A stretch of DNA of 64,000 nt from an uncultured Verrucomicrobiota bacterium (GTDB lineage: Bacteria; Verrucomicrobiota; Verrucomicrobiia; Limisphaerales; UBA9464), in assembly GCA_903907925.1 (NCBI GenBank), contig CAIVQB010000113.1:1-64000 (forward strand), written 5' to 3'. Position numbers and translations under genes: made by a program. Of the stretch, positions 7,898 through 48,706 are shown piece after piece (the stretch's first letter is position 1; each line of letters opens with the position of its first letter). Below the pieces are notes generated by a model. The model was given only the letters and a program-made list of their open reading frames with translations. It had not been told where the DNA came from and made no database searches.

Positions 7898-10800
7898 TCA
7901 TGGACTCTTCAGCAACATTCGGATCTGTTCGAATCGGGGATCGGTGGGGAACAGCTTGCGCAGGCTCGGTGCGGCCGGATTGGTCCGGGATTGGGCATCA
8001 CTCGCGGTGAAAGCCTTCTCCAGACTGGCTTTCGCCTCGGGTACTTTCCCGAGCGCTGCCTGCACCTGCGCCAGATTCAACCATCCATCGGCGCTTCCCG
8101 GCACAAGTCGGGTGATCTTCACGAAGGTCGCCTCCATGCCGTCGAGGCGGATGATCTCCCGGTAGCCTTCGGCGAGTTTGAGCAGTTGGGCCGGTTCCGA
8201 GGAGGCGGCGAGCAGGCGGTCGAAAATCGAGACGGCTTCATTGGATCGACCGCTCTGATACAAGGCGGCGGCGGCCTGGAATCCGGCATCGAAGTTTGTC
8301 GGTTGACTGCGGACCTGGGCTTCCAGGCTGGCGAGGGTTTCCGCCGTCACTGGAGTGGTGCCGGCGCTCTTGCGGACGCGATCGAGTTGGATCACCAGGT
8401 CACGAATCCCGGCGTTGTCCGAATCAAACGCCTCGCAGGTCTTGGCCACGAGGTAGGCGTCTTCGCTATGGCCGGTCGCCGCCAAAAGCGAAGCCAGGTT
8501 CCAGGTGGATTCAGGGCTGTAAGGACAGAAGGCGAACGCCTGTTTCAACGCGAACTCGGCCTCGCGCAGGTACCGCTGTTGCGCGACTGGATTGGTGGAG
8601 GTCTGCGCCCGCCAGCCGTAAATGCTCTTCCCCTGCGCATTGCGAAGTTTGCTGAAGGCCTTTTGTCCGTTGTCATCGCGAATGAACTTCGGGTCGCCCG
8701 TGAAGCCGGTCAGGTCGCGACGTTGATAGGTCTTCAACGCGAAGGCGCAGATGTCCTTGGTCGGCGTGGAGTCGGTGATCCAGTTGCCGATCAGGCGGGC
8801 TGAATACTGGCTCCAGAAGTCATGATCCCGCTGCATTTGCTCATCGGTGAGATCCACCACCGGCTGGCGCTCGATCTTCATGATGATGCCGTATGGAGTC
8901 AGATGCGGGTACATCCACTTCAACGGAAAACTCTCCTCGATGTAGAACTCGTGATCCGGGTTGTTGTCGAACATCACCTTGGTCAGGAGGCCGTTGATGG
9001 CCATGACCGCAACCTGTCCCGAAACCGAGATGCGGCCGTCCTGCAACGGCGTGACGACCTCGCCGGACTCGAGCTGACCAAGGGAATAGCGGCGGGCGGC
9101 ATCGTCGGTGTATTCGCGGTAGCAGCGGGAGAGATCATCGATCGATGCCGTCAGGATCTCGCGATCGGGAAAGAGTCCGCCCAAACTGGCCCGGATGAGG
9201 CCCGGATAGGATTCCTCGAGCAGCAACCGGTTCAGACGAACCCGGTTGGCGGTGGGCGGAGTCTGTCGGGCGAAAGCCCGGACCCGCTCACTGAGTTTCA
9301 TCTGGGAAAAGCGCGCGGGATCGTCGAATAACGACGGACCGTCGAGGACGCGATTGAGCGCAGTTGCCAGGGCGGTGGCATCGGCGGGAACGGTTCCGCC
9401 GAGCTTCTGACGCAGGTAGGCCGAGAGTGGATCGGTGCCGGTCCCGAGGCGGTTCTTGAAGGCGTTGAAATCCGCGAAATGATCGGCTTGGAAGAACGAG
9501 GAACCGGCCCGGCGTTCCTTCTCGATCCGCGCGCCGAGGCCGGTGAAGAAGGTGTCGAGCGGCGTCGCCAATTTGGCCAGGAAATTGGTCCGACCGCGGG
9601 ACGCCGACTTGGCGTCGTTGAGGAAGCCCTGGAAAAACGGTGGATCGACCTGCGCGCTCCGATTGTAGTGGGCGCGGATGTAGTCGAGGTAGGTGTTGTC
9701 GGCGAGGGCGTTTTGGGTGATGAGGTACACGTCCCGGCGATCGAATGCAGGGTTCCGGCGTTTCGCGGGCGGGATGAAGCTCTCGCAGAAAATCATGTAC
9801 GTCGGGCAGAACCGGCCGGGATCCGTGCCGCCGTAAAGGACCGCGTCGCGGGCCATGGGCGGGTAGAGCGGCTTGCCCGCGCGATCCTTGGGCGCGGGCG
9901 CGGCCGAGGTGTCGGCACCGGGCTCGAACATGTCGTGCCCGAACCAGAATCCGAAGTAGTGACCGCGCTGCTCGTTGTCAGCCCAGTGCGAAAAGATCGA
10001 ATCGGCCGGAACCAGCAGGAACAGCGCGAGAAACGGAACAAAGATGAGGCGATACTGACGCAGGAATAGAAGGGCGATGAACGCGATGGCCACCACAACG
10101 CTGATGCCCGCCCCGACACGGAGGGTGGTGAATTGGGTGTCGATCAGGACCAGCGCAAATTCGTAAAGGTTGAAGGCAAACACCACGAACCCACCCACGA
10201 ACAGCGGTAAACGAACCTGATCAAACTGCGTCAAAATGAGCGCACCGATGATCGACAATCCGTAGCCGACGGCCAGGGCGATGATCACGTGCGACGAGGT
10301 GAAGAACACCTTTACCATTTCGCGGCTCTGACGATCGACCCCGGGGTTGAGGAGAATCAGCAGCATGAAGGCGAGGCAGAGGTAGATCGCCGTCAGGCCA
10401 AAGATCCAGGCGCGCTCGCGGCGTTGCATGCGGCCGAGGAAAACGAACGGCACCAGACCGATGAGCAGATTGGCCCAGTTGAACTCCTCCTTGCAGCCCT
10501 GGGCGTACATCTGGATTTGCGAAAAGAGCATCCAGATGTTGAGGCTCGGATTGGTCTTTTCATATTGACCCCGGGTGAAGGCGTGGACGAAACCCTCTGC
10601 CGTTCGCGGGTAGCCCCAGTTCATCGGCGGATTGGTCATCGAAGCGACCGGCATGTAGAAGTAGAAGGCCGCGCCGGCGCAGAAGCATAGGAAACAGGCA
10701 ATGGCAGGCCACCAGTAGCGCAGCACCCGCTTCTCCTGCTCGGTGCCGTACGAGACTCCGAAAATTCCCACGACGGCAAGGATCGCAGCGCCGGCCAGAA

Positions 10801-11887
10801 GCTTGAGACTGGCACTGACGGCGGTTTCGAGTCCGTGAAGTTCCTGAACCACTTGTTCCGCCGACCGCCCTTGGGCGACCAATTGGCCGGCCTTCGACGA
10901 TTGCTCGACCAGCGTGATGGCTGAGAAATTGTAGTTCAGGAAAAGCAGGGCGAGAACGCCGGTAACCACACCGGTGATCCAGAGCCGGGACTTGTTGGAC
11001 ATCTCACCGGAGGCGGCATAGGCACCGGCAAACATCAGGATTCCGACTCCGTTGAACACCGTGAACACGCCGGGGTTGTCGTTGAGGATCCCCGTCAACG
11101 AGAAGGCGCGGCCCACCACCACCAGGGCGTAAAACAAGGCACTGCAGAAACAGAAATCCCGGCCGAGTTTCCGGTCCGCAGCCAGCACCAGGAACACGAT
11201 GCCAATGGCGGCGACGATCAGCGTTTGGTGGTTGCAGAAACACAGCCCGAACAGGAACAACGCGATGTAAAGATACCGTCGCTGCTCGGGCCGGTGGATC
11301 CACCGCAGCAGGAAGGCCAGCATGCCCATGAAGGTGAGGACGGCGAGGGTGTACACCTCGACGATCACCGCCTGGCTCCAGATGTAGCCGTTGAAACCGA
11401 TGAGAAGGCCGCTGACCAGTCCGGACACCAGGCAGAGCGGATTCTCCCAGCGTTTCTCGAGGGCTTTGAACAGGTCGACTCCTTCGAGAATCATGCTGCT
11501 CCCACGGGAAACCAGGAGCCCCACCAATCCGGCAGAGGCGGCGGCCGCAACGGCCGATGAAACGGAAACCCGCCAGGCGATGTTCGAGAAGGGCAGCAGT
11601 TTGGTGAACAGCCAGGTGTAGAGCGTCCAGACCGGATAGCCGGGAGGGTGCGGGACGCCGGCATACATGGATCCCACCGCCAGTTCGCCGGAATCCTCAA
11701 GCGTGAGATCTGGGGACAGCGTCAGCAGGTATCCGATCAGGACCAGTGCGGCGGTGACTAGGAAGGTGAGCCAATCGACACGACGGAAGAGGGCGTCAGG
11801 AGTGGCGGGAACCGGCGGTTGCGGCTCGGCCACCGCCGGTGCGGGGCGGGGCTTCGAACGGGCGGCGGCGGAATTCGGACTCGACAT
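7898..11887 (-). CDS. DUF2723 polytopic membrane protein with C-terminal TPR region
   Basis: A 1,329-aa inner-membrane protein. Residues about 40-650 hold roughly a dozen hydrophobic segments, and the first external loop carries LEDSGELAVGSMYAGVPHPPGYPVW, the DUF2723 signature; this family is related to GT-C protein O-mannosyltransferases. The acidic/GYP loop after helix 1 is where GT-C enzymes place their catalytic acid. The long soluble part (about 650-1150) has no recognised domain, and about 1150-1310 shows TPR-like helices (LREAEFALKQAFAFCPYSPESTWNLASLLAATG and AAALYQSGRSNEAVSIFDRLL). A glycosyltransferase role on an exported protein or lipid is inferred from the family, not proven. A short alanine/proline-rich cytoplasmic N-terminus precedes helix 1. 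It is the last gene of a minus-strand series. Confidence 0.85.
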   Translation of the reverse strand: MSSPNSAAARSKPRPAPAVAEPQPPVPATPDALFRRVDWLTFLVTAALVLIGYLLTLSPDLTLEDSGELAVGSMYAGVPHPPGYPVWTLYTWLFTKLLPFSNIAWRVSVSSAVAAAASAGLVGLLVSRGSSMILEGVDLFKALEKRWENPLCLVSGLVSGLLIGFNGYIWSQAVIVEVYTLAVLTFMGMLAFLLRWIHRPEQRRYLYIALFLFGLCFCNHQTLIVAAIGIVFLVLAADRKLGRDFCFCSALFYALVVVGRAFSLTGILNDNPGVFTVFNGVGILMFAGAYAASGEMSNKSRLWITGVVTGVLALLFLNYNFSAITLVEQSSKAGQLVAQGRSAEQVVQELHGLETAVSASLKLLAGAAILAVVGIFGVSYGTEQEKRVLRYWWPAIACFLCFCAGAAFYFYMPVASMTNPPMNWGYPRTAEGFVHAFTRGQYEKTNPSLNIWMLFSQIQMYAQGCKEEFNWANLLIGLVPFVFLGRMQRRERAWIFGLTAIYLCLAFMLLILLNPGVDRQSREMVKVFFTSSHVIIALAVGYGLSIIGALILTQFDQVRLPLFVGGFVVFAFNLYEFALVLIDTQFTTLRVGAGISVVVAIAFIALLFLRQYRLIFVPFLALFLLVPADSIFSHWADNEQRGHYFGFWFGHDMFEPGADTSAAPAPKDRAGKPLYPPMARDAVLYGGTDPGRFCPTYMIFCESFIPPAKRRNPAFDRRDVYLITQNALADNTYLDYIRAHYNRSAQVDPPFFQGFLNDAKSASRGRTNFLAKLATPLDTFFTGLGARIEKERRAGSSFFQADHFADFNAFKNRLGTGTDPLSAYLRQKLGGTVPADATALATALNRVLDGPSLFDDPARFSQMKLSERVRAFARQTPPTANRVRLNRLLLEESYPGLIRASLGGLFPDREILTASIDDLSRCYREYTDDAARRYSLGQLESGEVVTPLQDGRISVSGQVAVMAINGLLTKVMFDNNPDHEFYIEESFPLKWMYPHLTPYGIIMKIERQPVVDLTDEQMQRDHDFWSQYSARLIGNWITDSTPTKDICAFALKTYQRRDLTGFTGDPKFIRDDNGQKAFSKLRNAQGKSIYGWRAQTSTNPVAQQRYLREAEFALKQAFAFCPYSPESTWNLASLLAATGHSEDAYLVAKTCEAFDSDNAGIRDLVIQLDRVRKSAGTTPVTAETLASLEAQVRSQPTNFDAGFQAAAALYQSGRSNEAVSIFDRLLAASSEPAQLLKLAEGYREIIRLDGMEATFVKITRLVPGSADGWLNLAQVQAALGKVPEAKASLEKAFTASDAQSRTNPAAPSLRKLFPTDPRFEQIRMLLKSP

Positions 11888-13879: not shown

Positions 13880-14713
13880 TCAGGGGCGGATGAGGTGGGC
13901 GGCTTCGGTGGCGGTGGCGCCGTCGTGCACGATGGCCATCAAGGCCCGGGTCATCCCCGCCGGATCGGTGTGCTGGATGATGTTGCGGCCATAAACGATG
14001 CCTGCCGCGCCCTGCTGGATTAGCGTTTCCGTGCGTGCGAGGATTTCAGCATCTGCCGCCTTGCCACCGCCCCGGACCAGCACCGGAATCCGGCCTGAAA
14101 TCTCCACCACCCGGTGATAGTCGACCACCGCATCGGTGGGATCGGCCTTGATGATGTCGGCACCCAGTTCAACCGCCTGACGAACCAACGGCAGGATCTT
14201 GTCGAGATCGCCATCGACCATGTAGCCGCCAGCCTTGGTGTTTGGTTGGAACACCAGCGGCTCAATCATCAGCGGCATCGAATAGCGGTCACACTCCGGT
14301 TTGATCCGCAAAATGTTCTGGATACATTGATCCGATACCTCGGGTTCGCCGGGAATCCGGAACAGGTTCACCACCACGCAGGTCGCATCCAAACGGAGTG
14401 CCTGTTCGACCGGCGCATCGATCATCCGGCTGAACAACGCCCGCGGCAGTTGGGAGCCATAGACGTTGGCCACGTCGGTCCGCAGCACCAGCGCCGGCTT
14501 CTCCTTGCCGCGAATCGATTGCAGGTATTGGGCCTGGCCGACGGTCAGTTGGATCGCGTCGGGCGCCGCCGAAACCACCGTCTGGACCGCTTTTTCCATG
14601 TTCTCAATGCCGTTGAGAAAGCCGCGTTCGTTGAAGAAGCCATGGTCGATGGCGACGTCGAAGCAGCGGTTGGACTTGGCGTTGAACAGGCGGTTGAGGC
14701 GATACGCTTTCAT
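13880..14713 (-). CDS. Class I aldolase of the DeoC/FbaB/LsrF family
   Basis: A 277-aa TIM-barrel aldolase. The N-terminal AIDHGF (residues 21-26), the Schiff-base lysine in ADIIKADPT (K189) and the phosphate-binding ends VLVRGGGKAADAEIL (211-225) and GAAGIVYGRNIIQ (236-248) match archaeal-type class I fructose-bisphosphate aldolases and LsrF/DhnA-like enzymes. A cytoplasmic role in cleaving or condensing a ketose phosphate is inferred; the exact substrate is not readable. It is the last gene of a minus-strand cluster with a PfkB kinase, a HAD phosphatase and an oxidoreductase, which suits sugar-phosphate breakdown or synthesis. It is separated by 81 bases from ApbE upstream. Confidence 0.85.
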   Translation of the reverse strand: MKAYRLNRLFNAKSNRCFDVAIDHGFFNERGFLNGIENMEKAVQTVVSAAPDAIQLTVGQAQYLQSIRGKEKPALVLRTDVANVYGSQLPRALFSRMIDAPVEQALRLDATCVVVNLFRIPGEPEVSDQCIQNILRIKPECDRYSMPLMIEPLVFQPNTKAGGYMVDGDLDKILPLVRQAVELGADIIKADPTDAVVDYHRVVEISGRIPVLVRGGGKAADAEILARTETLIQQGAAGIVYGRNIIQHTDPAGMTRALMAIVHDGATATEAAHLIRP

Positions 14714-14794
14714 GAACGGGATCGGAGGGTGCCGGGAACCAGCCGGAAATTTCCACCGACAAATGCGGCAATTACAGGCTTTGAAAATTCCCGA

Positions 14795-15811
14795 TCAATG
14801 CGGCCAGAGCCAACGGCCGAAGCCCGGGGTTCGGTCCTCTTGCACCTCGGTTCCGGGCTTGCGGAGGACCAGGGCTTCAACGCCGCGGAACCCTCGCAGC
14901 TTCGCCAGGCCCTCCACCGGTCCCAACACGCTGACCACCTTCGACAGCGCGTCGACGGTCATGCCCTCGGGACCGATCAGCGTCACCAATCCATGATCGG
15001 TCAGGCCGATTCCGGTATGCGGATTGACGATGTGAGAGTAACGAATGCCGCCGATTTCGGCCCGCTGGAAGACATCCCCGGAAGTCGCCAGGGCCTGCCG
15101 CCGCAGCGCAACGAACCGCGGCGCCGGTGCCGGCGTCGTGTCAAACACGCCCACCTCGACGCGCCAGCCCGGTTGGTCGGGCGGCGGTTCCCCGGCCACC
15201 ATGTCGCCGCCGCCGCTGACCAGAAACCGGCGAACGCCCGCCGCACGGAGCGTTCGTGCGGCTTCGTCCAACGCGTACCCTTTGGCGATGCCACCCGGGT
15301 CGAGTCGCATTCCCGGCTGGGTCAACTGCGCGGTTCGTGACCGGTGATCGAGTTCGATAGACTGCCAACCGACTGATTTCAGGGCGGTCTCAAGTTGGGA
15401 ATGGGGCGGGAGCTGTCGTTGTCTTCGTGCCCGTTTCCAAAGTTGAACCAGGGGGCCGACGGTGATGTCGAACGCGCCGTCGCTCGCCCGTGAGACTTGA
15501 TCCGCGCGGACCAGGACGTTCCAAAGGTCCGCCGAGACAGGAACGGCTCGGTGGCTGCCGGAGGAACGCGAGAGGCGGGACAGTTCGGATTCCTCCTCAT
15601 AATCACTGAGAATCGCATTCAACTGCGCGATTCGCGAAAAAGCCGCTTCCGAAGCGGTCCGGGCGTGTTCCGCGTCGGGAGCGTAGAGGACAATTCGGAA
15701 CGGCAATCCCATTTCGGGACGATCAAATTCGAACCGGCTCGTTGCGACAGGCTGGGTCCGGCAGCCGGATGCAAGGCCTCCGATGACGGCCAGCAGGAAC
15801 CAGATCTTCAC
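14795..15811 (-). CDS. apbE: ApbE-family FAD:protein FMN transferase lipoprotein
   Basis: Transfers FMN from FAD to a Thr/Ser of target flavoproteins at the outer face of the inner membrane. The 338-aa protein has a lipoprotein signal with lipobox LASGC (Cys17), then the ApbE landmarks: LNAILSDYEEESELSRL, FDITVGPLVQLWK, DPGGIAKGYALDEAARTL, VSGGGDMVAG, and SHIVNPHTG with the following DALSKVVSVLG metal/FAD region. Length is normal. It overlaps the upstream PfkB gene by four bases (ATGA), so it is co-translated with a kinase cluster. No Nqr, Rnf or other typical flavinylation target is in the window, which makes this context unusual. Confidence 0.93.
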   Translation of the reverse strand: MKIWFLLAVIGGLASGCRTQPVATSRFEFDRPEMGLPFRIVLYAPDAEHARTASEAAFSRIAQLNAILSDYEEESELSRLSRSSGSHRAVPVSADLWNVLVRADQVSRASDGAFDITVGPLVQLWKRARRQRQLPPHSQLETALKSVGWQSIELDHRSRTAQLTQPGMRLDPGGIAKGYALDEAARTLRAAGVRRFLVSGGGDMVAGEPPPDQPGWRVEVGVFDTTPAPAPRFVALRRQALATSGDVFQRAEIGGIRYSHIVNPHTGIGLTDHGLVTLIGPEGMTVDALSKVVSVLGPVEGLAKLRGFRGVEALVLRKPGTEVQEDRTPGFGRWLWPH

Positions 15812-16821
15812 GGAAACAACCGTTCGCGCAATTGGGCGACCGAGGCGGTTCCGGTGGTGCCCAATTGATGGATCACAATGCTGGCTGCTGCCATGGCCAG
15901 CTCCATCGCCTCCAGCACCGTGGCGCCGGCGGCGAGTGCCGCGGTGAGGTTTGCGGTCACCGAGTCGCCGGCACCCACGATGTCGATCGGGCCACGGATG
16001 GGATGGGACGCAACGTGATGAACGGAGCCGTCGGGCAGCGCGCCAACCATTCCACGTTCGGCGAGGGTGACGAACGCGGGTTGTCGGTTGGTTGCGGCCA
16101 TATGGGCGCAGGCACGGCCGATTTCTTCGATCGATTCCACCGGAGCTCCGGCCAGCGCACCGAGTTCGCGGGCATTCATCTTGAACATCACCGGTGGCCA
16201 GCCCGAAAGGCCGCGCCGACTGTCCGCCACCCAGGGCGGGCTCAACGGGCGCTGCAATGAGCGAACCACATCCAGCAATTCCGGCGTGACGACACCGGTT
16301 TCAGCGACATCCACCTGATCGAGAAGAATCATCCCGCTCGAAACCTCCGCTGCCTGGATCAGGGCCGCGCCCAAAGCCGTGCGGAGAGCCGTTGGGGTCG
16401 GTGACCAATTTTTCAAGTCGAGCCGGCTCAGCTCTTCGGGCGGCATTCCCAAGCGGTGCAGCAACGGCTTGCTGTAGGTAAAAGTGTGACGATTCGCCGC
16501 GGTGAGAAACCCGTCGAGAACCACTCCGGGCCGGGCGGCCAGTGCACGCCGAAGTTCCCAGCCCTCGCCGTCATCGCCACACAGCCCGATGGGCCGAAGT
16601 TCGCCCACACCGAGCGCCGCGAGATTGTTGAGAATCGTTCCTGCGCCACCGGGCTGGCATCGGGTGCCGGTGACGTTATGGACCACCAGTCCGGTCTCGA
16701 TGGATATTTCCTGGAGCGCCGGATCGATGTCGAAATAGCGGTCGAGGCAGAAATCTCCGGCAATGGTCAACCGGAGCGACGGATAGACACCGGTGATTTG
16801 TTCGAAGCGTTCGCGGTTCAT
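15808..16821 (-). CDS. PfkB-family carbohydrate kinase (HldE/RfaE kinase-like)
   Basis: A 337-aa ribokinase-fold sugar kinase. It has GDFCLDRYFDIDP near the N-terminus (residues 22-34), the family motif PGGAG (57-61), and the anion-hole/catalytic motif GAGDSVTANLTAAL (283-296, base Asp286). The N-terminal pattern is closest to the heptose-phosphate kinase domain of HldE/RfaE, so a phosphosugar substrate is inferred. The ATG at 16819-16821 overlaps the upstream gene by four bases and the stop overlaps apbE by four, showing tight translational coupling on both sides. A longer in-frame extension upstream lies inside the neighbouring gene and is rejected. Confidence 0.9.
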   Translation of the reverse strand: MNRERFEQITGVYPSLRLTIAGDFCLDRYFDIDPALQEISIETGLVVHNVTGTRCQPGGAGTILNNLAALGVGELRPIGLCGDDGEGWELRRALAARPGVVLDGFLTAANRHTFTYSKPLLHRLGMPPEELSRLDLKNWSPTPTALRTALGAALIQAAEVSSGMILLDQVDVAETGVVTPELLDVVRSLQRPLSPPWVADSRRGLSGWPPVMFKMNARELGALAGAPVESIEEIGRACAHMAATNRQPAFVTLAERGMVGALPDGSVHHVASHPIRGPIDIVGAGDSVTANLTAALAAGATVLEAMELAMAAASIVIHQLGTTGTASVAQLRERLFP

Positions 16822-17918
16822 GCCGGCACCAGTTCGCGGTGGAGATGATGGATGAAGTCGAGGTTGTCGCATTGCAGATACCGCATCGCGCCGCCCATCC
16901 TGGAAAAGCTTTTGCAGAAGCGCAGGTAGTACGCCGGATTCGACTTGGGCGGTTCGCCGGTGGTCCAATCCCATTGCCCGCCGTCCTGTAGATCGACGAC
17001 GTAAATGTCGAAATTCGACACCGGCGGACGTCCGTCCTGAAAGCGAAGATTGTGAACGCAACTGAGGCTCTTTTCGAAGACCTGCGGGGCCATGATGGCG
17101 GATCCGACCGACATCACGACACCGCCGTGCAGTCCTTCGACCGCCCCGGCGAAGAGCCGAAAATCCTCGCCCGCCCCGCGACCGATCACCGCACCGTTGA
17201 ACATCGGATGACAGGAGATAATGTCGTAACCGATGCCTGGATGAACGGTGACTGGAACGCCATTCCGCCAGGCCTGCGCCAGGATGCTGGCCTGTTTCCA
17301 CGCATGAACGATTTCATGCCGACCTTCCGCGAGGCCGAACCGTTGCTGGGCGGCGAGCAGATCGCAGCAGGCGGCGGCCAGCGGGTCGCCAGGAAACTGT
17401 TGAATGATGGCGGCGAGTTCCTCACCCGTGGGAAGGGTGCAACCATCTTCGTAGATGAAGCGACCCAGCGACCGGCCGTAGCCCAATCCTGAAAGCGCCC
17501 CGGCCATCAGTGCGAGATGCAGATTGCGCCCGGTTTCGTCCCAGGTTCCGAAGGTTCCGGTCGCCACGTTCTGTTCCACGCTCTCGGTGGAGCGACCCAG
17601 CCAGGCGTATTCCCAGTCGTGAATGGTGCCCGCGCCGTTGGTCGCGAGATGGGTGATGAAGCCCCGTTCCATCAGATCGGTGAGCAACAGCGCCGCACCA
17701 TTGCGGAGCAGATGCGCGCCGTACATCAGGATGATCTCCGACTTCCGTTCACGCGCCACGCGGATTTTTTCGGCGGCACCACGAATCACCGAGACGAGCT
17801 CGGCAGAAATCGGTCGCGGTGTCGCGGCGGGTGAAACCAGAATGTCCTCGACCCGGGTGAGACTCCGACGCTCCGCGAGCGGCAGGACTTTCAGCCGGGA
17901 CAAATCCAGGGAAGGCAT
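16818..17918 (-). CDS. Conserved protein resembling deoxyhypusine synthase-like enzymes
   Basis: A 366-aa soluble protein. Residues about 60-130 (HLLRNGAALLLTDLMERGF, then HLATNGAGTIHDWEYAWLG and TFGTWDETGR) resemble the NAD-binding core of deoxyhypusine-synthase-like proteins found in bacteria that lack hypusine. The canonical lysine loop of true eukaryotic/archaeal deoxyhypusine synthase was not identified. HPGIGYDIISCHPMFNGAVIGRG and GGVVMSVGSAIMAPQVFEKSL are strikingly conserved-looking segments of unknown role. Lying between a HAD phosphatase (24-base gap) and a PfkB kinase (4-base overlap), it more likely acts on a sugar phosphate or a nucleotide cofactor than on a protein. The gene is certain; the function is not. 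Confidence 0.75.
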   Translation of the reverse strand: MPSLDLSRLKVLPLAERRSLTRVEDILVSPAATPRPISAELVSVIRGAAEKIRVARERKSEIILMYGAHLLRNGAALLLTDLMERGFITHLATNGAGTIHDWEYAWLGRSTESVEQNVATGTFGTWDETGRNLHLALMAGALSGLGYGRSLGRFIYEDGCTLPTGEELAAIIQQFPGDPLAAACCDLLAAQQRFGLAEGRHEIVHAWKQASILAQAWRNGVPVTVHPGIGYDIISCHPMFNGAVIGRGAGEDFRLFAGAVEGLHGGVVMSVGSAIMAPQVFEKSLSCVHNLRFQDGRPPVSNFDIYVVDLQDGGQWDWTTGEPPKSNPAYYLRFCKSFSRMGGAMRYLQCDNLDFIHHLHRELVPA

Positions 17919-17942
17919 GGAGGTTTGAAGAATGAGGCCGGT

Positions 17943-18779
17943 TCAACCGGGAAACAGGCTGTCCATGAGCGGATCCAAATCCCGGTAGTCGGGAATGCAG
18001 ACATCCGCGCCCACGCCGAGAAGGCGTTGTCGTTTCCATTCGTCCATCTGTCCCGAGCCATTGTTGGCCTCGTCGCTGGCCACCGCGACCGCGCAGCCAC
18101 CCACCTGCTTGGTGTTCTCGATCTCCACATAGCCGTCGCCAAACGCCAGCAACGACCCGCCCGGAATCCGGTTCTCCGCGAGGATGCGGTCGATCACCAT
18201 CTTCTTGCTGAACTTCCGGTAATCATCCTGCGCGCCGTAGATGTGACCCTTGAAATAATGGGTGATGTCGAGCGCCTCGGCCTCGGCCTTCACGAATTGC
18301 TCATCGGTGCCGCTGGCCAAGTACAGCGGAAGGCCGCGGGCGGTCAGCGCTTCCAGCAATGACCGCGTGCCGAAGACCGTGAAATCATCCCGAACCAGCG
18401 TCCCGGCACGGATGCCGTCCACCCGATGCCGGATCCGCTCGTCCAGGCGGCGCAGGTATTCGTGTTTGTACTCCAACGGTTCGAGCGGCGTTCCGCCACG
18501 CTCGCGAACGCGATCGGCCAGTTGGATCATCTGGTAGATCGTCTGCTTGCCGTTCAGGCGCATGATGTCCTCAAACGCCAGTTTGCTGCGCTCTTCCTCC
18601 GATTCGCCCGCGATCGCGGGAATGATCCCGGTGAACATCGGCACCATCACGTCGGGCCAGCCCTGACGGATCAACGACAGCGTGCCGTCGAAATCGAACA
18701 GCACATGGCTGATGCCCGGGCGTGGTTTGAACGTGGGGTGGAAATCGACCCGGCCAGAAAATCGAGCGGTAAGACTCAT
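17943..18779 (-). CDS. HAD-superfamily hydrolase (putative sugar phosphatase)
   Basis: A 278-aa haloacid dehalogenase-type phosphatase. The nucleophile motif DFDGTLS is at residues 29-35, the motif II serine is in LYLASGTDEQF, the motif III lysine is probably in RKFSKKMVIDRIL, and the motif IV acidic pair is in LLAFGDGYVEIENTKQVGG. An alpha-helical cap lies between motifs I and II (FEDIMRLNGKQTIYQMIQLADRV). The ATG at 18777-18779 is preferred over a GTG nine codons upstream. Its place directly before the deoxyhypusine-synthase-like and PfkB genes suggests that it dephosphorylates an intermediate of the same pathway. Confidence 0.88.
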   Translation of the reverse strand: MSLTARFSGRVDFHPTFKPRPGISHVLFDFDGTLSLIRQGWPDVMVPMFTGIIPAIAGESEEERSKLAFEDIMRLNGKQTIYQMIQLADRVRERGGTPLEPLEYKHEYLRRLDERIRHRVDGIRAGTLVRDDFTVFGTRSLLEALTARGLPLYLASGTDEQFVKAEAEALDITHYFKGHIYGAQDDYRKFSKKMVIDRILAENRIPGGSLLAFGDGYVEIENTKQVGGCAVAVASDEANNGSGQMDEWKRQRLLGVGADVCIPDYRDLDPLMDSLFPG

Positions 18780-18878
18780 GCGTCGTTTGAAAGTGACCGT
18801 TCCCACCCGTGGCCGTCAATGACCCGGCTCGGAACGGTTTTCAACGGGAGTTGTTTCGCCATCGAGGGGACCGCCGTC

Positions 18879-19919
18879 TCACCGTGCGATCATCGCGGGT
18901 TGTCCGGAAGCGATCGATGCCGCTTCCGCCTCGCAGACGGCCACCGCGGCCGCGCCATCCGCCGCGGTCACTGTCCGCGGCGCGACGCCGGTCCGCACGC
19001 AGTTGAGGAAGTAGGTCAATTCGCCGACATAGCCGTCGCTGACGCCGGGTCGGATCACTTCCGCGGGTTGCCCCGGGACAAATCGCTTCAACGCCTCATC
19101 GCCGCGGGCCAGATCGAAGTCGATCGTCGCGCGTTCGAAATTGACGGTGAACGCCATGTTGAATCCGAAGCCTTCCGACATCGCCCAACTGCCTTCCGCG
19201 CTGACCGTGGTCCCGCCTTCGACCGAATAGAGGGCTACGACGTGATCGATGGCACCGCTGACCTTGGAGTACCCCGAGGCAAACACGCTGCGCGGTCGGC
19301 CGAAGCAGTGGAGGATGAAATCGACGTCATGGATGTGGAGATCCAGCAGCGCGCCGCCGCTCTGCCCCCCTTTGAAAAAGTGTTCACGGCCCCAGCCCGG
19401 CGGTTGCGCCACCCGACGAAAGCGGGCGTCGAGGACTCTTCCATGAACGCCCGAATCGATCAGACCTTTCACCCAGGAATAAGCGGGCCAGAATCGGATG
19501 CACATCGCCGGCATGAGAAAAACACCGCGCGCGTCGGCATCAATCACCGCCCGCACCAAGCGTTCCGCGTCGCGGCTGTTTCCGGCCATCGGTTTCTCGA
19601 CCAACACATGCTTACCCGCCGCCAGGGCCTGAAGGGCGAGGTCGACGTGGGTGTGGGTTGGCGTGGTGATGTCCACGACGCGAATGCCGGGATCGACAAA
19701 CAATGCGGCCGGATCCCGGTAGGTTTTCACCCCGGTCATGTCCAACCGGAACGCCTGGCCGTCACCCACGTTGCCCGCCACGCCCGAGAAATCGCCGTCG
19801 AGATGCCGTCCACTCGGATTGCACAGCGCGGCGATCCGGGCGCCTGGAATCTGGGTGTAAGCCTTCAAATGCGCGACCGCCATGAATCCGGTGCCGACAA
19901 TGCCGATCGGGATGTCCAT
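18879..19919 (-). CDS. Gfo/Idh/MocA-family NAD(P)-dependent oxidoreductase
   Basis: A 346-aa cytoplasmic sugar or inositol dehydrogenase-type protein. The Rossmann motif GIVGTGFMAVAH starts at residue 6, the family EKP motif appears in VLVEKPMAGN, and the C-terminal alpha/beta domain contains GGALLDLHIHDVDFILHCFG, the conserved HDxD region near the active site. The ATG at 19917-19919 is placed directly before the first strand; the long in-frame upstream extension is intergenic. It is the first gene of the sugar-phosphate cluster, 99 bases ahead of the HAD gene, and probably oxidises a polyol or sugar ring feeding the kinase and aldolase steps. Substrate is unknown. Confidence 0.88.
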   Translation of the reverse strand: MDIPIGIVGTGFMAVAHLKAYTQIPGARIAALCNPSGRHLDGDFSGVAGNVGDGQAFRLDMTGVKTYRDPAALFVDPGIRVVDITTPTHTHVDLALQALAAGKHVLVEKPMAGNSRDAERLVRAVIDADARGVFLMPAMCIRFWPAYSWVKGLIDSGVHGRVLDARFRRVAQPPGWGREHFFKGGQSGGALLDLHIHDVDFILHCFGRPRSVFASGYSKVSGAIDHVVALYSVEGGTTVSAEGSWAMSEGFGFNMAFTVNFERATIDFDLARGDEALKRFVPGQPAEVIRPGVSDGYVGELTYFLNCVRTGVAPRTVTAADGAAAVAVCEAEAASIASGQPAMIAR

Positions 19920-26420: not shown

Positions 26421-28352
26421 ATGCGCCCGAGTTTCCCCACTTCAATCGTTGCCCTCGCCGGATGTACGGCTGCGGCGGTCTTGTTCACCGCCCGGTCGGA
26501 GGACGCTCCGCCGCCGGAGTTTTCCGTTTCTCCGTATTTCCGTTTTTCCTCGCGGGCCAAGGTGGATCAGGTCGAGGCCGACGTCCGTTCGCCGCGGGTG
26601 GGCATCGATTGGACCGGCACCTGGCTGCTGCCGCCGCGCTGGCGGTTCAGCCTGGAGGCCGGGGTGGAGCACGATCATTACCGGCTCTTCAATTTTGATC
26701 GGGTCTTGGCCGGGGCCGCCGAGCCGTTGCGCGATGCATTCCGGGTGAAGCTCGCTCCGACGGTGAGCTATGGCTTAAACGACCATTGGGCCTTGATCAC
26801 CAGCGGCAGCCTGGAATGGAGCGGGGATCCCGATGCGGAGAATGGGAAGTCGATCATCGTCGGTGGATTTGTCGGTGCGCGTCGTCAGTTTAATGAGAAC
26901 TTCAGCCTGACCTTTGGCGGCCTTGCCTCCACACGCCTGGCCGACACTCCCCGATTCCTGCCGATGGTGGGCGTCGACTGGCAGATTTCGCGTCGATGGC
27001 GGTTGTTCACCCAGGGACCGGGTGGACAGTTGAGCTACGCCATCCGGACGAACGGCCATCCGCTGACCGCCTTTGTCCACATGGCCTACGAAAGCCGTGA
27101 ATTCCGGTTGGCGCCGGATGCCTCCATACCCGGTGGTGTTCTGCGTGATCAATCCTACCCGGTGGGTGTCGGTTTGGAATGGCACGCAACACCCGCGGCC
27201 ACGCTGACCGCTGAAGTGGGCTCGGCCATGTCGGGATCAATTCGCGTCCGGGATAGTCACGACCGCTCCGTGGTGGATCGCGACCTTCAATCCGCGTCGT
27301 TCGTGCGAATCGGACTCAACGTGGCGTTTGGTGGATCAGGTCGCTCCACCGCAAAGTCAGAAGCTTCGCCAGCGGCGGGCGGTCCTGCGTCGTCCGATGC
27401 GACGGGGCCTTCGTTGTCCGGATCGGTCTTTTCCGCGTGGGAAGAGAACGATTCCGTGACCGGCACCGATTCCGATTATTCGCAGGGAATCCAATTCGCC
27501 TACCTCGCGCCCGAGGTGGCCTGGGGTTCCATGCCGTCGAGCCTGGCGTGGTTTGGAGAAAACCTCCCGGCGTTCGGCTATCAGGTGGAACGGGCGCGAT
27601 TCACGGTGGCCACGGGGCAATTGATGTTCACGCCGATCAACATCCACACCGTCGCCCTCCAGACTCAGGACCGGCCCTATGTCGGTTGGATGTATCTCGC
27701 GCCCGCCGTTCAACGTCGCGGACAAACCTCGAGTGGAAACGCCGTGCTGGAAGAATTGCGGCTCGGGCTGGGCTGGATCGGACCCGGGGCACTCGCTGGC
27801 GAAGCGCAAAACTTCATTCACCGCAATTTTGCTATCGGACTGGCGGAAGGCTGGACGCATCAATTGCACAACGAACCCACTGGTGACGTGACCCTGGCGC
27901 GTGCCTGGCGTCATACCCTCGCGGGTGACCGTGATGGCGGTGTGGTGGAATTCATCTCGCACGGTGCATTGACCGGCGGGACACCGCTCACCCAGGCCAC
28001 CGCTGGTGGAATGATCCGCATCGGCGTCAATCTTCCCGACGATTTTGGTCAACCGACCATCCAATCCACGCTACCCATCTCAGCGGGAATCCCGCGAGGG
28101 TTCGGATTCCACGTGTTCGCCGGCATTGAGGGACGGGCGACGGCTTATGACAGTTTCGTCGACGGCAACCTCTGGCGATCCAGCCATTCGGTGACCGGTG
28201 TTCCGTTCGGCTATGAGAGCCGGGTCGGTTTTGCGGTGACCTGGCATTCGCTGGATCTCGGATTCACCCACGGTCGTCAGAGTCCCGATTTCAAACAGCA
28301 GACCGGTGGGAATCACGACTACGGCTCCCTCTGGCTAAACTGGAGAATCTGA
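26421..28352 (+). CDS. Outer-membrane protein with C-terminal LpxR lipid A deacylase domain
   Basis: A 643-aa exported protein with a signal sequence (about residues 1-26). Residues about 34-310 are an outer-membrane beta-barrel-like region with alternating aromatic/polar strands (FSVSPYFRFSSRAKVDQVEA, LTFGGLASTRL, SFVRIGLNVAFG), similar to barrel families of Verrucomicrobia. After a Ser/Ala-rich linker (about 312-330), residues 333-643 form an LpxR (DUF2219) domain with SVFSAWEENDSVTGTDSDYS and QDRPYVGWMYLAP. LpxR removes the 3'-acyloxyacyl chain from lipid A, and END and TDxxYS match its metal/active-site region. Known LpxR proteins are single barrels of about 300 aa, so this is a fusion of about double length. 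Deacylase activity is inferred. Confidence 0.82.
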   Translation: MRPSFPTSIVALAGCTAAAVLFTARSEDAPPPEFSVSPYFRFSSRAKVDQVEADVRSPRVGIDWTGTWLLPPRWRFSLEAGVEHDHYRLFNFDRVLAGAAEPLRDAFRVKLAPTVSYGLNDHWALITSGSLEWSGDPDAENGKSIIVGGFVGARRQFNENFSLTFGGLASTRLADTPRFLPMVGVDWQISRRWRLFTQGPGGQLSYAIRTNGHPLTAFVHMAYESREFRLAPDASIPGGVLRDQSYPVGVGLEWHATPAATLTAEVGSAMSGSIRVRDSHDRSVVDRDLQSASFVRIGLNVAFGGSGRSTAKSEASPAAGGPASSDATGPSLSGSVFSAWEENDSVTGTDSDYSQGIQFAYLAPEVAWGSMPSSLAWFGENLPAFGYQVERARFTVATGQLMFTPINIHTVALQTQDRPYVGWMYLAPAVQRRGQTSSGNAVLEELRLGLGWIGPGALAGEAQNFIHRNFAIGLAEGWTHQLHNEPTGDVTLARAWRHTLAGDRDGGVVEFISHGALTGGTPLTQATAGGMIRIGVNLPDDFGQPTIQSTLPISAGIPRGFGFHVFAGIEGRATAYDSFVDGNLWRSSHSVTGVPFGYESRVGFAVTWHSLDLGFTHGRQSPDFKQQTGGNHDYGSLWLNWRI

Positions 28353-28463: not shown

Positions 28464-29681
28464 TCACGTCCCGGCGAGGGAGACAGCGGGTTCGATGTCG
28501 CGCACCAGCACCCGTCGGGAGAGCCAGATGCTCAACAGGCTTGCGGCAACGGCGGCCCAACCCAGCCACTGATAGCCGATCAGGCGGTGATCCGGCGCGG
28601 TGGTGACGAGCCAACCGCCGAAACCTGAGGCGATGCCCGCGGTAATATCCCGCACACAACTGGTCAGGCTCATGAAGGATCCGCGATGGCTGCGCGGTAC
28701 GGCCAGCGACAAAATGGCCTGGCCCGGGACAAACCGGCCACTGGCGAATCCGAAGAACAACGCCGCCAGCACGAGTACGCCCCAGAGCGGAAGCGGTCCT
28801 GCTTGGGTGAGGAACAGGGTGACTGCGCACGCGACGGCCACCAGAATCGTGAACACCCGGTGGCGGCCGCGACGATCCGCAACCCGTCCAATCCACGGGG
28901 AAACAATCACCGTCACCACCCCGCCCACGAAATAGACGAGGAACAAATGCCGTTCCGGCAGACCGACGTTGGCGACCAGGTAGGGTGAGAGAAAGGGGAT
29001 GACGGTGAAGTGGCCGAAGATCATCGCCGCCATAAAGAGCAGGGCGCGCCCGGCGTTGGCGTCGCGGAGCAAATCGTGGAACGGATGAAAGCTTTCACCG
29101 GCGGGAATCTTGAGATGATCGCGCACTGGCGGCAGAACAAATGCCAGAACGGTCCACATTACGGTGGCGATCGCCGCGAGCAGGAAGAACGGTGCCTCCC
29201 AGTTGAAATGCTGGGCGAGATAAAGTCCGACCGGGATTCCCAGCGCGGCGGCGACCGAGAACGCTGTCATCACGATTCCGAGCCCCGCGGCACGCCGTTC
29301 GGGCGGCACGATGTCACTGACGATGGCCATCACCAATGACCCGGAAACGCCGCCAAAACCACCGCAGACGATCCGCGCCAGCATCAGCGAATGCGCGCTG
29401 TGGGACACCGCGCAGGCGAAGGTCCCGGCCGCAAACCCGGCGTAGGTGATCAGCAGCAGCGTCCGGCGATCCCACCGATCGATGAACGTGGCGGCGATCA
29501 GTCCGATCACTCCGGCGCTGATGGTGTACGCGGCGACGAGGCTGCTGAAGGAGCCCGGTCCAATGTTCAAATCCCGCATCAATTGCGGTCCCAACGGCAT
29601 CATGATCATGAAGTCCATGATGTGGGTGAACTGCACCGCGGCGAGCAGGAGCAGCAGCGGGCGCTCGGGCTGACGGCTCAT
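28464..29681 (-). CDS. Major facilitator superfamily transporter
   Basis: A 405-aa inner-membrane protein with about 12 hydrophobic helices in two halves. The MFS loop 2-3 motif appears as FIDRWDRRTLLLITYAGFA and its second-half counterpart as WIGRVADRRGRHRVFTILVA. Helix 1-2 shows HIMDFMIMMPLGPQLMRDL, a phrase common in drug/arabinose-efflux-like MFS proteins. Substrate is unknown; export of small molecules is likely from the neighbouring RND genes. Its start overlaps the RND pump gene stop by four bases, making it the last member of an efflux operon. It converges on the LpxR-barrel gene. Confidence 0.9.
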   Translation of the reverse strand: MSRQPERPLLLLLAAVQFTHIMDFMIMMPLGPQLMRDLNIGPGSFSSLVAAYTISAGVIGLIAATFIDRWDRRTLLLITYAGFAAGTFACAVSHSAHSLMLARIVCGGFGGVSGSLVMAIVSDIVPPERRAAGLGIVMTAFSVAAALGIPVGLYLAQHFNWEAPFFLLAAIATVMWTVLAFVLPPVRDHLKIPAGESFHPFHDLLRDANAGRALLFMAAMIFGHFTVIPFLSPYLVANVGLPERHLFLVYFVGGVVTVIVSPWIGRVADRRGRHRVFTILVAVACAVTLFLTQAGPLPLWGVLVLAALFFGFASGRFVPGQAILSLAVPRSHRGSFMSLTSCVRDITAGIASGFGGWLVTTAPDHRLIGYQWLGWAAVAASLLSIWLSRRVLVRDIEPAVSLAGT

Positions 29682-32600
29682 CCCGGGGTGCCGTGGGTTG
29701 GAGCTGGAGTTGGGCCGTGGCCGGCCGCTACCGGCACCGGAGCCGGTGTCCGCCGGACTCCAAACCGTTCCGCGAGCTGCATGATGACGGTGTAGAAAAC
29801 CGGGGTAAGGAAAAGGCCAAAGACGGTCACGCCGATCATTCCCGCGAAGACGGCGACTCCCATGGCCTGTCGCATTTCGGCACCGGCACCGTGGGATTTC
29901 ACCAGCGGGAAGACGCCGGCGATGAAGGCGATCGAAGTCATCAAGATCGGCCGGAGACGCAACCGGCAGGCTTCGAGCGCGGATTCAACAATGCCGGTGC
30001 CCCGGTCCTGCGCCGCGCGGGCGAATTCCACGATCAGAATGGCGTTCTTGCAGGCCAGTCCGACCAACACGATCAGGCCAATCTGGGTGAAGATGTTGTT
30101 GTCACCGCCCTGGATCAGGACGCCGGTCATGGCGCTGAGCAGGCACATCGGGACGATGAGAATGATGGCCACCGGAAGAGTGAGGCTTTCGTACTGCGCG
30201 GCGAGTACGAGGAAGACCAGGAGGATGCACAACGGGAAGACGTAGATGCCGGTATTCCCGGCGAGTCGCTGCTGATAGGCCAGCTCAGTCCATTCAAAGG
30301 CCATGCCCGGGGCGATTCCCTGGTGCACGAGCGTTTCGATGAAGGCTTCTGCCTGACCTGAGCTGTACCCAGCGTTGGGTGCGCCATTGATTTCGGCGGC
30401 CGGATAACCGTTGTAGCGCATCACGCGGTCGGGTCCGTACGATTCCCGAACGGTCATCAGGCTGCCGAGTGGCACCATCTGACCCTTGTCATTCTTGGTC
30501 TTCAACCGCGCCACATCGTCCGGTCGATCGCGGAAGGCGGCATCGGCCTGGGCGATGACCTTGTAGGTGCGTCCAAACCGGTTAAAATCGTTCACGTACA
30601 GCGACCCGAGATAAATCTGCATCGTCTCAAACAAATTCTGCAGCGGAACTCCCTGCGACTTGGCCTTCCGACGATCCACGTTGGCGTCGATCTGCGGCAC
30701 GTTGATCTGGTAGGTCGAGTAGACGCCCTGCAGGACGTTCGTCTGATAGCAGCGACCAATGATACCCCAAGTGGCGCCATAAAGGGCTTCCGGTCCGAGA
30801 TTTTGGCGGTCCTCGATGAACAGCTTGAAACCGCCGCCGGTGCTGAGGCCGTTGACCGGTGGGGCGTTGATCACAATTGTCCGCGCCTCCTGGATGGAGG
30901 AAAAGGCTTCCATCAACCGCGCCCGAATCGCCTTTGCCGAAAGATCGTGGGACCGGCGCTCCTCGAACGGTTTGAGCGTGATGAAGGTGATTCCGGAATT
31001 GGGACTGGCGGTGAATCCATTGGGCGACAATCCTGGAAACGCGACGGAGGCTTCCACGCCGGGAACCTTCAATGCCAGTTCGGTCATCCGTTTGACCACC
31101 GCATCGGTCCGATCCAGGGATGCGGCATCCGGAAGCTGGGCCACGCAGATGAGGTATTGTTTGTCCTGCTCGGGAATGAATCCGGTGGGCACTGCGTTGA
31201 AAACACCGCCGGTCAGGAAGAGCAACCCGACATAGACCACCAGACACACGACGCTGTACCGGATGACGCGGGCGACACCGCGGGAGTAGCCGAGGGAGGC
31301 ACGCTCGAAAAAGCGGTTAAACGGACGGAAGATCCAACCGAAGAGCGCGCTGATCCCGCGGGAAAAGGCGTCCGGCTTCTCATGATGCCCGCGCAGCAAC
31401 ACTGCCGACAGGGCGGGGGAAAGGGTCAGGGAATTGAAGGCCGAGATCACCGTTGAAATGGCGATGGTGATGGCGAACTGCTTGTAGAACTGGCCGCTGA
31501 GACCGCTGATGAACGCGGTGGGAATGAAGACCGCGCACAACACCAGGGCTGTCGCGACGATCGGGCCGGTCACTTCATCCATGGCCTTGCGGGTGGCGTC
31601 GATCGGCGACAGTCCGAGGGCGATGTTCCGTTCGACATTTTCCACCACCACGATGGCGTCGTCGACCACGATGCCGATGGCCAGCACCAGGCCGAACAGC
31701 GACAGCGCATTGATGGAGAACCCGAGCGCGGCCATGACGGCGAAGGTGCCCACCAATGAGACCGGCACGGCCACCAACGGAATAATGGACGCCCGCCAGG
31801 TTTGCAGGAACAACAGCACCACCAGCACCACCAGCAGTACGGCTTCAAACAGGGTGTGAATGACGGCGTCGATGGATTTGGCAACGAAGACCGTCGGGTC
31901 GTACACCACGTTGAAATCCATCCCGGCGGGGAAGTTCCGTTTCAAGTCGGCCATCGTCTTGCGGACGGTGCGGGAGAGCTCGAGAGCGTTGCTGCCGGGT
32001 TGTTGGAAGATCGGCAGGGCAACGGCGGATTTGTTGTTGAGCTGCGACCGGAGACTGAATTCACCGGCTCCCAGTTCAATCCGCGCCACGTCGCGCAATC
32101 GGACCGTTTCACCGTGCGCACCGGTCTTGATCAGGATGCCGCCGAATTCCTCCTCGGACACCAGGCGGCCTTGGGTGTTGATCTGAAGTTCGAATCCCAC
32201 CGGTCCGGCCACCGGTTGCTGGCCGACGGCACCGGCCGCGACCTGGACGTTCTGCTCGCGGATCGCATCGACCACATCACTCGCCGTGAGGCCTCGGGCC
32301 GCGGTTTTTTCGGGGTCGAGCCAGACCCGCATCGCGTAGTCGCCCGATCCGAACACCTGGACCTGACCGACGCCGGGAATCCGGGCCAGCACGTCCTTCA
32401 CCTGGAGCGTGGCGTAGTTGCGGACAAAGATGTCGTCGTAGGTTCCGTCAGAGGTCAGATGGACCACCATCGTGAGGTCCGGGGTGGATTTGATGGTCAA
32501 CACACCGAGGCGACGAACCTCTTCCGGCAGCTTGGGTAGGGCCTGTGAAACGCGGTTCTGAACCAGCACCTGGGCTTGGTCGATGTCGGTGCCCAGCTTG

Positions 32601-32887
32601 AAGGTGACCGTCAGCGTCATGACGCCGTCGCTGGTCGACTGCGAAAAGATGTAGAGCGAATTCTCGACGCCGTTGAGCTGCTGTTCGAGGGGGATGGCGA
32701 CCGTTTCGGAGATCGTCTTCGGATTGGCGCCCGGATAGACGGCGCGGACCACGATCTGAGGCGGCGTGACTTCGGGGTACTCGCTGATCGGGAGGCGGAA
32801 GAGGCAGATCAATCCGACCACGAAGATCAGGATCGACAGCACCGCCGCGAAGATCGGGCGGCGGATGAAGAAATGGGAAAAATTCAT
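29678..32887 (-). CDS. RND multidrug efflux permease (HAE1/AcrB type)
   Basis: A 1,069-aa proton-driven inner-membrane pump that takes drugs from the periplasm and passes them to an outer-membrane channel. It opens MNFSHFFIRRPIFAAVLSIL and has 12 helices with two large periplasmic domains. The proton-relay pair lies in GIVVDDAIVVVENVER of helix 4, and the second-half signature QYESLTLPVAIILIVP is present. HAE1 features include GIAPGMAFEWTELAYQQ in the second porter domain. No outer-membrane TolC-like gene is adjacent. It is preceded by the adaptor lipoprotein gene (31 bases) and followed by the MFS gene (4-base overlap). Confidence 0.95.
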   Translation of the reverse strand: MNFSHFFIRRPIFAAVLSILIFVVGLICLFRLPISEYPEVTPPQIVVRAVYPGANPKTISETVAIPLEQQLNGVENSLYIFSQSTSDGVMTLTVTFKLGTDIDQAQVLVQNRVSQALPKLPEEVRRLGVLTIKSTPDLTMVVHLTSDGTYDDIFVRNYATLQVKDVLARIPGVGQVQVFGSGDYAMRVWLDPEKTAARGLTASDVVDAIREQNVQVAAGAVGQQPVAGPVGFELQINTQGRLVSEEEFGGILIKTGAHGETVRLRDVARIELGAGEFSLRSQLNNKSAVALPIFQQPGSNALELSRTVRKTMADLKRNFPAGMDFNVVYDPTVFVAKSIDAVIHTLFEAVLLVVLVVLLFLQTWRASIIPLVAVPVSLVGTFAVMAALGFSINALSLFGLVLAIGIVVDDAIVVVENVERNIALGLSPIDATRKAMDEVTGPIVATALVLCAVFIPTAFISGLSGQFYKQFAITIAISTVISAFNSLTLSPALSAVLLRGHHEKPDAFSRGISALFGWIFRPFNRFFERASLGYSRGVARVIRYSVVCLVVYVGLLFLTGGVFNAVPTGFIPEQDKQYLICVAQLPDAASLDRTDAVVKRMTELALKVPGVEASVAFPGLSPNGFTASPNSGITFITLKPFEERRSHDLSAKAIRARLMEAFSSIQEARTIVINAPPVNGLSTGGGFKLFIEDRQNLGPEALYGATWGIIGRCYQTNVLQGVYSTYQINVPQIDANVDRRKAKSQGVPLQNLFETMQIYLGSLYVNDFNRFGRTYKVIAQADAAFRDRPDDVARLKTKNDKGQMVPLGSLMTVRESYGPDRVMRYNGYPAAEINGAPNAGYSSGQAEAFIETLVHQGIAPGMAFEWTELAYQQRLAGNTGIYVFPLCILLVFLVLAAQYESLTLPVAIILIVPMCLLSAMTGVLIQGGDNNIFTQIGLIVLVGLACKNAILIVEFARAAQDRGTGIVESALEACRLRLRPILMTSIAFIAGVFPLVKSHGAGAEMRQAMGVAVFAGMIGVTVFGLFLTPVFYTVIMQLAERFGVRRTPAPVPVAAGHGPTPAPTHGTPG

Positions 32888-48500: not shown

Positions 48501-48699
48501 GGAGAACGGAACCGGTTCCGAACTCCGGAAGCCGCTCGGCATCTCCATCGTCGGCGGCCTGTTGGTGTCCCAGTTCCTGACGCTCTACACCACGCCAGTC
48601 ATTTATCTCTACATGGATCGACTCAGCCGTTGGGTGACTGGTCGTGCGCGCGCCGGCGAATCGATGCCGCCCGCAGTGGCCCTGGGGGCGACGCACTAA
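45580..48699 (+). CDS. RND efflux permease, MdtB-like
   Basis: A 1,039-aa inner-membrane proton/drug antiporter with 12 helices. The start is GTG (VNLSEPFIHRPVATSLLMAG), overlapping the adaptor stop. Helix 4 holds GFVVDDAIVMIENIVRHLEAGE with the Asp pair, the periplasmic entrance has FPGASPEVMASSVTTPLERQ, and the second half has LGVLYESYIHPITILSSLPS and GIVKKNAIMMIDFALEAERE. The sequence matches MdtB/MdtC more than AcrB. The second permease follows after only seven bases and has the same length, fitting an MdtB-MdtC heterotrimer. Confidence 0.94.
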   Translation: MNLSEPFIHRPVATSLLMAGVVIMGVLGYLLLPISALPPVDFPTIQITAQFPGASPEVMASSVTTPLERQFGQISGLNLMTSQSSFGNTAVTLQFNLDRDIDAAAQDVQAAINAANGVLPRMPNPPTFSKINPADSPILTLEVHSATLPLERVTDIADTVLAQKLSEVTGVGLVTIQGKQKPAVRVRINPSALAALGLSLEEVRTALVQNNINAPKGSFDGAHQAFAITVNDQIYNAVEYANVIVAYKNGSPIRVRDIGEVVDDVENMRLGGWVGDRPAVIVDIQRQPGANIIQTANRVKELLPALRSVMPAGVKVDILTDRTETIRASIADVEFTLILTVILVILVIFLFLRKFWATVIPSVALPIAVVGTFGVMKLAGFSLDNLSLMALTISTGFVVDDAIVMIENIVRHLEAGEAPLPAAIKGARQIGFTVISLSVSLIAVFIPLLFMTGIVGRLFREFAMTLSIAVVMSAIVSLTLTPMMCARLLKSEALTVHGRFYRVTERFFQGMLNAYEHGLKWVLRNQPFTLAVALATLAATIWLFFLVPKGLLPQQDTGLIIGVTESAQTISFRAMADRQRAVTEIVRRDPDVASVASFVGTGTVNVTGNSGRIYINLRPRSQRKAGADEIIGRLREATRSVEGIALFMQAVQDVQIDSRISSTQYQYTLQDADDSELTEWAPRLLTRLRELPELTDVASDQQAAGLQLVVEIDRDAAARLNVPLQSIDDTLYDAFGQRQVSTIFTQLNQYRVVLEAGTQFQVGPEALGTVYVKSSTGQMVRLSSIATVRTRSAALSISRQGQFPAVTLSFNLRPGSSLGAAVEAIQKAGRDISLPDTIATNFSGSAAEFRSSLASEPFLILAAIVVIYIVLGVLYESYIHPITILSSLPSAGVGALLALILCGEQLSLVALIGIILLIGIVKKNAIMMIDFALEAEREEGLQPEESIYKACLLRFRPIMMTTMAALLGALPLALENGTGSELRKPLGISIVGGLLVSQFLTLYTTPVIYLYMDRLSRWVTGRARAGESMPPAVALGATH

Positions 48700-48706
48700 T
48701 CGTTCC

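Follow-up and report, generated by a model that had tools for sequence, protein, structure and literature searches.

Six genes lie in one direction on the minus strand of the window, which is the whole stretch of 64,000 nucleotides that was analysed. In the order in which they are read, these genes encode a Gfo/Idh/MocA oxidoreductase (18879..19919, with its start ATG at 19919; PF01408 and PF22725), a HAD phosphatase of predicted C1-cap type (17943..18779; PF00702, 3e-12), a GSU2086-family protein with a predicted Rossmann fold of the deoxyhypusine synthase (DHS)/AgrE type (16818..17918; NF052581), a PfkB-family kinase resembling HldA/RfaE-I (15808..16821; PF00294), a lipoprotein of the ApbE family of FAD:protein FMN transferases (14795..15811; PF02424, 232.5 bits for a cut-off of 25.6) and a DeoC/LacD (DhnA-type) class I aldolase (13880..14713; PF01791, 3.4e-36, 125 bits for a cut-off of 23.8). 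The second, third and fourth of them are referred to here as core genes 1, 2 and 3. The open reading frame coordinates bear out the direction and order given in the original prediction, and Pfam agrees for five of the six genes (GFO_IDH_MocA, HAD Hydrolase, PfkB, ApbE and DeoC/LacD). The spacing described there is also matched exactly, with 24 bases between the HAD and DHS-like genes, a 4-base overlap (ATGA) between the DHS-like and PfkB genes and another (GTGA) between the PfkB and ApbE genes. The ends of the cluster are spaced wider, with 81 bases between the ApbE and aldolase genes and about 72-99 bases between the Gfo/Idh and HAD genes. The HAD gene has its first ATG at 18779 and an alternative GTG at 18806; the ATG seems to be the most likely start because a relative (L237) opens with MSLTAPFSG, and the gap to the Gfo/Idh gene would therefore be about 99 bases. 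A promoter scan of the cluster found nothing, and its terminator-like sites were close to the shuffled expectation.

The middle genes look translationally coupled, as had been proposed, and this linkage goes beyond chance, since different phyla show both the ATGA overlap and the gene order HAD-GSU2086-PfkB. The conserved unit consists of the HAD phosphatase, the GSU2086-family protein and the PfkB kinase, not of six genes, and it represents a widely conserved bacterial operon. The GSU2086 family is found over its cut-off in 35 of 288 genomes of a phylum sample and in 155 of 195 genomes of the window's order. Across 80 named loci, the full arrangement seen most often is HAD-GSU2086-PfkB with all three genes in the same direction; it occurs in Verrucomicrobia and also in Planctomycetes, including Singulisphaera sp. 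GP187 (L150) and Paludisphaera soli (L156). Loci titled Acidobacteria or Bryobacterales have GSU2086 alone at the sensitivity used. The record titles of the loci are in part MAG labels, which may be wrong. These gene-neighbour conclusions rest on tblastn, a listing based on open reading frames being confounded by antisense frames in GC-rich DNA. Within the order, all 127 genomes with a kinase of the window's type also have a GSU2086 match, compared with 29 of the 59 without such a kinase (Fisher 1.5e-18, uncorrected for phylogeny). The existence of these 29 genomes suggests that GSU2086 may act without the kinase, or that the MAGs are incomplete. The two genes are adjacent in 94 of the 119 genomes of the order with mapped positions, and the ATGA overlap is present at 33 of 55 measured loci, some genomes being counted twice. 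The distance matrices of GSU2086 and PfkB correlate with an r of 0.64, for a shuffle maximum of 0.23, and at four loci (L038, L039, L042 and L064) GSU2086 adjoins a PfkB-HAD fusion of about 630 amino acids. Split clusters are seen in two congeners: L097 and L098 carry Gfo-HAD(50%)-GSU2086 on one contig, and in L235 and L236 PfkB is on another contig, after a 956-aa gene that weakly resembles glucosylglycerate hydrolase, with ApbE directly downstream in L236. Moreover, at 19 loci (L106, L107, L109, L110 and L113, among others) the triad is preceded by a divergently transcribed gene whose product is a Tat-signal protein of about 370 aa.

The protein in the middle of the triad had been called deoxyhypusine-synthase-like, a description that holds for its fold and fails for its family. 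It belongs to the GSU2086 family of NCBIfam (NF052581, 335 bits for a cut-off of 250) and has no match to PF01916 in Pfam, while the sole PF01916 gene recovered by a search of the window's own genome lies on contig C21. A true DHS or homospermidine synthase was rejected on these grounds, as was an ornithine cyclodeaminase of the AgrE/ArgZ type, for which the TIGR00300 score of 19.8 bits is far under the cut-off of 410.8. Nevertheless, a profile built from 22 relatives finds ArgZ (E 3.8e-6) and AgrE (1.2e-5) in the PDB. In an AlphaFold2 model of the GSU2086 protein (pLDDT 93.1, pTM 0.91), the closest fold is the C-terminal region of AgrE (Z 18.5, rmsd 3.5, 219 aligned), followed by ArgZ, an archaeal LOR/SDH protein and then deoxyhypusine synthases with Z of 16.8 and below (7cmc: Z 16.8, rmsd 4.0, 253 aligned; 1dhs: Z 16.1). 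When compared by profile with the DHS of the same genome, the protein aligns over the HD-motif region only. In a set of GSU2086 proteins reaching down to 33-41% identity with the window protein, the invariant residues include R17, H100, D101, E103, D232, K283, R333 and K336, so that K283 and the HD-x-E motif are retained throughout, and some of these residues may bind NAD or phosphate. AgrE and DHS are NAD-binding enzymes, and the modelled fold suggests that the GSU2086 protein is probably NAD-dependent as well. To our knowledge, the DHS/AgrE fold has been characterised only in polyamine and ornithine chemistry.

With regard to the two other core proteins, the GAGD motif of PfkB is invariant, and so are the HAD catalytic residues D38, D40, S165, K201 and D224 (38 sequences; numbering from the GTG start). 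A sequence search of the HAD protein against the PDB gave no match. Its AlphaFold2 model (pLDDT 89.5) has a best fold match with a Z of 20.6, and the matches with Z of about 18-21 are C1-cap HAD phosphatases and beta-phosphoglucomutases, which on the modelled fold makes it a C1-cap phosphatase. Assignment as GmhB was tried and rejected: the window HAD is absent from the genome's matches to TIGR01656 (histidinol-phosphatase/GmhB-type), whose over-cut-off match adjoins HldA on contig C1. The window PfkB scores 117 bits against the HldA model TIGR02198, under the cut-off of 345, and shares 25% identity with the HldA encoded in the same genome.

At certain loci the triad is part of a longer module. 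The order ROK-SIS-HAD-GSU2086-PfkB is found at L151 and SIS-HAD-GSU2086-PfkB at L150, L156 and L186; ROK-SIS-HAD-PfkB occurs at L251, L252 and L253, with GSU2086 on a different contig of the same genome, and SIS-HAD-PfkB at L254. In the window's genome, ROK and SIS are encoded as a pair off the window contig (G000:C2), and this SIS protein is 63-67% identical to the module-linked ones. The best PDB matches of the SIS proteins are phosphoheptose isomerases, and their scores against the GmhA model TIGR00441 are 97-107 bits (106.7 for the one on C2), for a cut-off of 209. Of the 127 genomes that have the kinase, 115 also have SIS. The missing partners of the window triad are likely to be this ROK kinase and GmhA-like isomerase on another contig. 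A related context is seen at L032 and L033, where a GSU2086 protein of the short form comes after an HldE-like nucleotidyltransferase-kinase protein, and in Geobacter, where GSU2086 is numbered between GSU2085 hldE and GSU2087 gmhA and where mutants in hldE, GSU2086 and gmhA have in common an electrode-growth phenotype (-3.1, -3.2 and -3.7, respectively; PMC5585712).

Sugar-phosphate chemistry, as put forward in the original prediction, is likely, and no named pathway with such a gene order was found, in agreement with that text. The chances seem evenly balanced that HAD-GSU2086-PfkB (18779-15808) forms part of a five-enzyme phosphosugar pathway with a probable NAD-using step catalysed by the DHS-fold protein. 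The set would comprise the ROK kinase, the GmhA-like isomerase, HAD, GSU2086 and PfkB, the first two being encoded on C2. If the steps run as in the ADP-heptose pathway, the isomerase would yield heptose 7-phosphate or a similar aldose phosphate, PfkB would phosphorylate C1 and HAD would take off the distal phosphate; the pairing of kinase and phosphatase implies a bisphosphate intermediate. The GSU2086 protein would probably use tightly bound NAD for a transient oxidation, a rearrangement or an epimerisation of one intermediate. The most likely use of the product would be in the synthesis of surface glycans, which is a guess because the window's cluster has no recognised nucleotidyltransferase or glycosyltransferase. 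A more specific version, offered here tentatively, is that NAD transiently reduced on GSU2086 serves to epimerise, deoxygenate or cyclise a heptose-type (bis)phosphate, leading to an undescribed activated sugar in Verrucomicrobia, Planctomycetes and Geobacter. Several observations speak against the five-enzyme pathway: its kinase and isomerase are under the cut-offs of the true heptose families, the genome already has the canonical HldA-GmhB and HldC, and 29 genomes of the order have GSU2086 but no match to the kinase. Gene linkage, co-occurrence, the modelled fold and the catalytic motifs of HAD and PfkB are what the data show, and the order of reactions, the use of NAD, the substrate and the product are inferred from them.

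An alternative is that the triad serves ADP-heptose synthesis as a redundant or replacement branch, with PfkB as a second HldA, HAD in place of GmhB and GSU2086 as a regulator or accessory subunit. The HldA-like kinase, the GmhA-like SIS, the kinase-phosphatase pairing, including the fusions, and the Geobacter context are all consistent with such a branch. However, canonical HldA is encoded at G000:C1:53028-54430 (351 bits, TIGR02198) with the GmhB-type gene beside it, and canonical HldC separately at G000:C115:30463-30888. Furthermore, the low identity of the kinase to the genome's HldA and the many invariant polar residues of GSU2086, which are typical of enzymes, do not fit with this role, and the alternative appears unlikely. 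Since the genome has the separate canonical genes, the triad seems to be a paralogous, heptose-like second system.

Another explanation would be metabolite repair or salvage of a damaged or unusual phosphosugar, in which kinase and phosphatase remove a dead-end compound and nothing is synthesised. The small size of the operon and its wide distribution would suit such a role, as would the fact that, within the window's order, no linked nucleotidyltransferase or glycosyltransferase recurs. Nonetheless, a biosynthetic role is favoured by the HldE-like neighbours at L032 and L033 and, in Geobacter, by the electrode-growth defect that GSU2086 has in common with hldE and gmhA, which makes repair or salvage rather improbable.

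The flanking genes bear on the remaining explanation, which follows the original prediction in proposing that a sugar is oxidised and then split by aldol cleavage in a single six-gene pathway. When the gene order was looked for in other genomes, the triad recurred, while the six-gene set was found only in a congener (L099), where one more gene separates ApbE from the aldolase. Members of the genus and family, and G337, have an aldolase with 82-95% identity to that of the window. The enzyme is encoded on a different contig, among unrelated genes, in four relatives from the genus and family (G293, G351, G424 and G382), lies away from GSU2086 with unrelated neighbours in G337 and G304, and is linked to GSU2086 at one of the 80 named loci. 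Being conserved yet set in unrelated neighbourhoods except at L099, it looks like a housekeeping-type enzyme and is probably an incidental neighbour. The linkage of Gfo/Idh upstream of the triad is similarly narrow, being confined to close relatives within the genus. The absence of the DHS-like and ApbE genes from otherwise conserved clusters had been named as evidence against a common function; the former proved to be part of the core and the latter is usually absent. Of 71 testable loci, 9 have ApbE directly 3' of PfkB on the same strand, and 6 more have it on the opposite strand at a distance of up to 2.5 kb; it follows PfkB in four cases where GSU2086 is elsewhere (L236, L255, L258 and L259), so that ApbE is a recurrent but optional neighbour. 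A catabolic pathway of all six genes, with Gfo/Idh oxidation, phosphorylation, dephosphorylation and aldolase cleavage and with ApbE and the DHS-like protein included, is in keeping with the common strand, the tight middle spacing and the order kept at L099, but is very improbable in view of this distribution of the aldolase and Gfo/Idh genes.

The window's genome has three ApbE genes, and the protein encoded here carries an N-terminal lipoprotein-type signal, VKIWFLLAVIGGLASGC, as read from the sequence. At eight loci (L107, L108, L169, L174, L196, L197, L199 and L213) ApbE is found near the triad, and genes for a Tat-signal Gfo/Idh-like protein and for a cytochrome-type protein come after it; this group is mostly on the strand opposite to the triad. 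Elsewhere in the window, a 1329-aa TMEM260-like protein (protein O-mannosyl-transferase) with C-terminal TPR repeats is encoded beyond the aldolase end of the cluster (7898-11887, minus strand). Two tandem AcrB-type RND transporter genes lie behind a HlyD-type gene (44327-51826, plus strand), and a third AcrB-type gene is on the opposite strand (29678-32887, minus). In addition, a 643-aa protein (26421-28352, plus strand) has an LpxR domain, of the lipid A deacylase-type outer membrane protein, in its C-terminal half, with a weaker DUF6268 match ahead of it.

What was already known of this system is the name of the GSU2086 family in NCBIfam and the Geobacter mutant phenotype; no description of the function of GSU2086 or of the HAD-GSU2086-PfkB operon was found in the literature open without subscription. 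By bringing a kinase and a phosphatase together with a DHS-fold enzyme, this conserved, coupled operon provides a concrete lead to new phosphosugar biochemistry. The operon is present in most sampled genomes of the window's order and in Planctomycetes, and the Geobacter homologue gives mutants with poor electrode growth. The five-gene set of ROK, SIS, HAD, GSU2086 and PfkB offers defined enzymes for reconstitution.

Among the known systems, the C-terminal ornithine cyclodeaminase domain of AgrE/ArgZ is the best fold match of the window protein and resembles it in profile across the HD-x-E motif region. However, the window protein is devoid of the arginine dihydrolase domain, falls far under the TIGR00300 cut-off and has neighbours of sugar-phosphate and not of arginine type. 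Deoxyhypusine and homospermidine synthases have the fold (Z about 16.8) and a GA-x-x-HD-type motif in common with it, but PF01916 is not matched and no polyamine genes were recognised near the window gene. The Geobacter GSU2085-GSU2087 genes are alike in family membership over the NF052581 cut-off and in HldE/PfkB-type and GmhA-type neighbours; in contrast, the window has a separate HAD gene in an operon without a nucleotidyltransferase, and its protein has 366 aa with an insert, as against 301 positions in the GSU2086 model and about 300-335 aa in the short forms. Finally, the module differs from the front end of the ADP-heptose pathway (GmhA, HldA and GmhB) in having a kinase and an isomerase under the family cut-offs, a HAD of predicted C1-cap and not GmhB type, an additional DHS-fold enzyme and ROK kinase, and separate canonical HldA, GmhB and HldC genes in the same genome, while the two are alike in that a GmhA-like isomerase, an HldA-like PfkB kinase and a phosphatase are encoded together.
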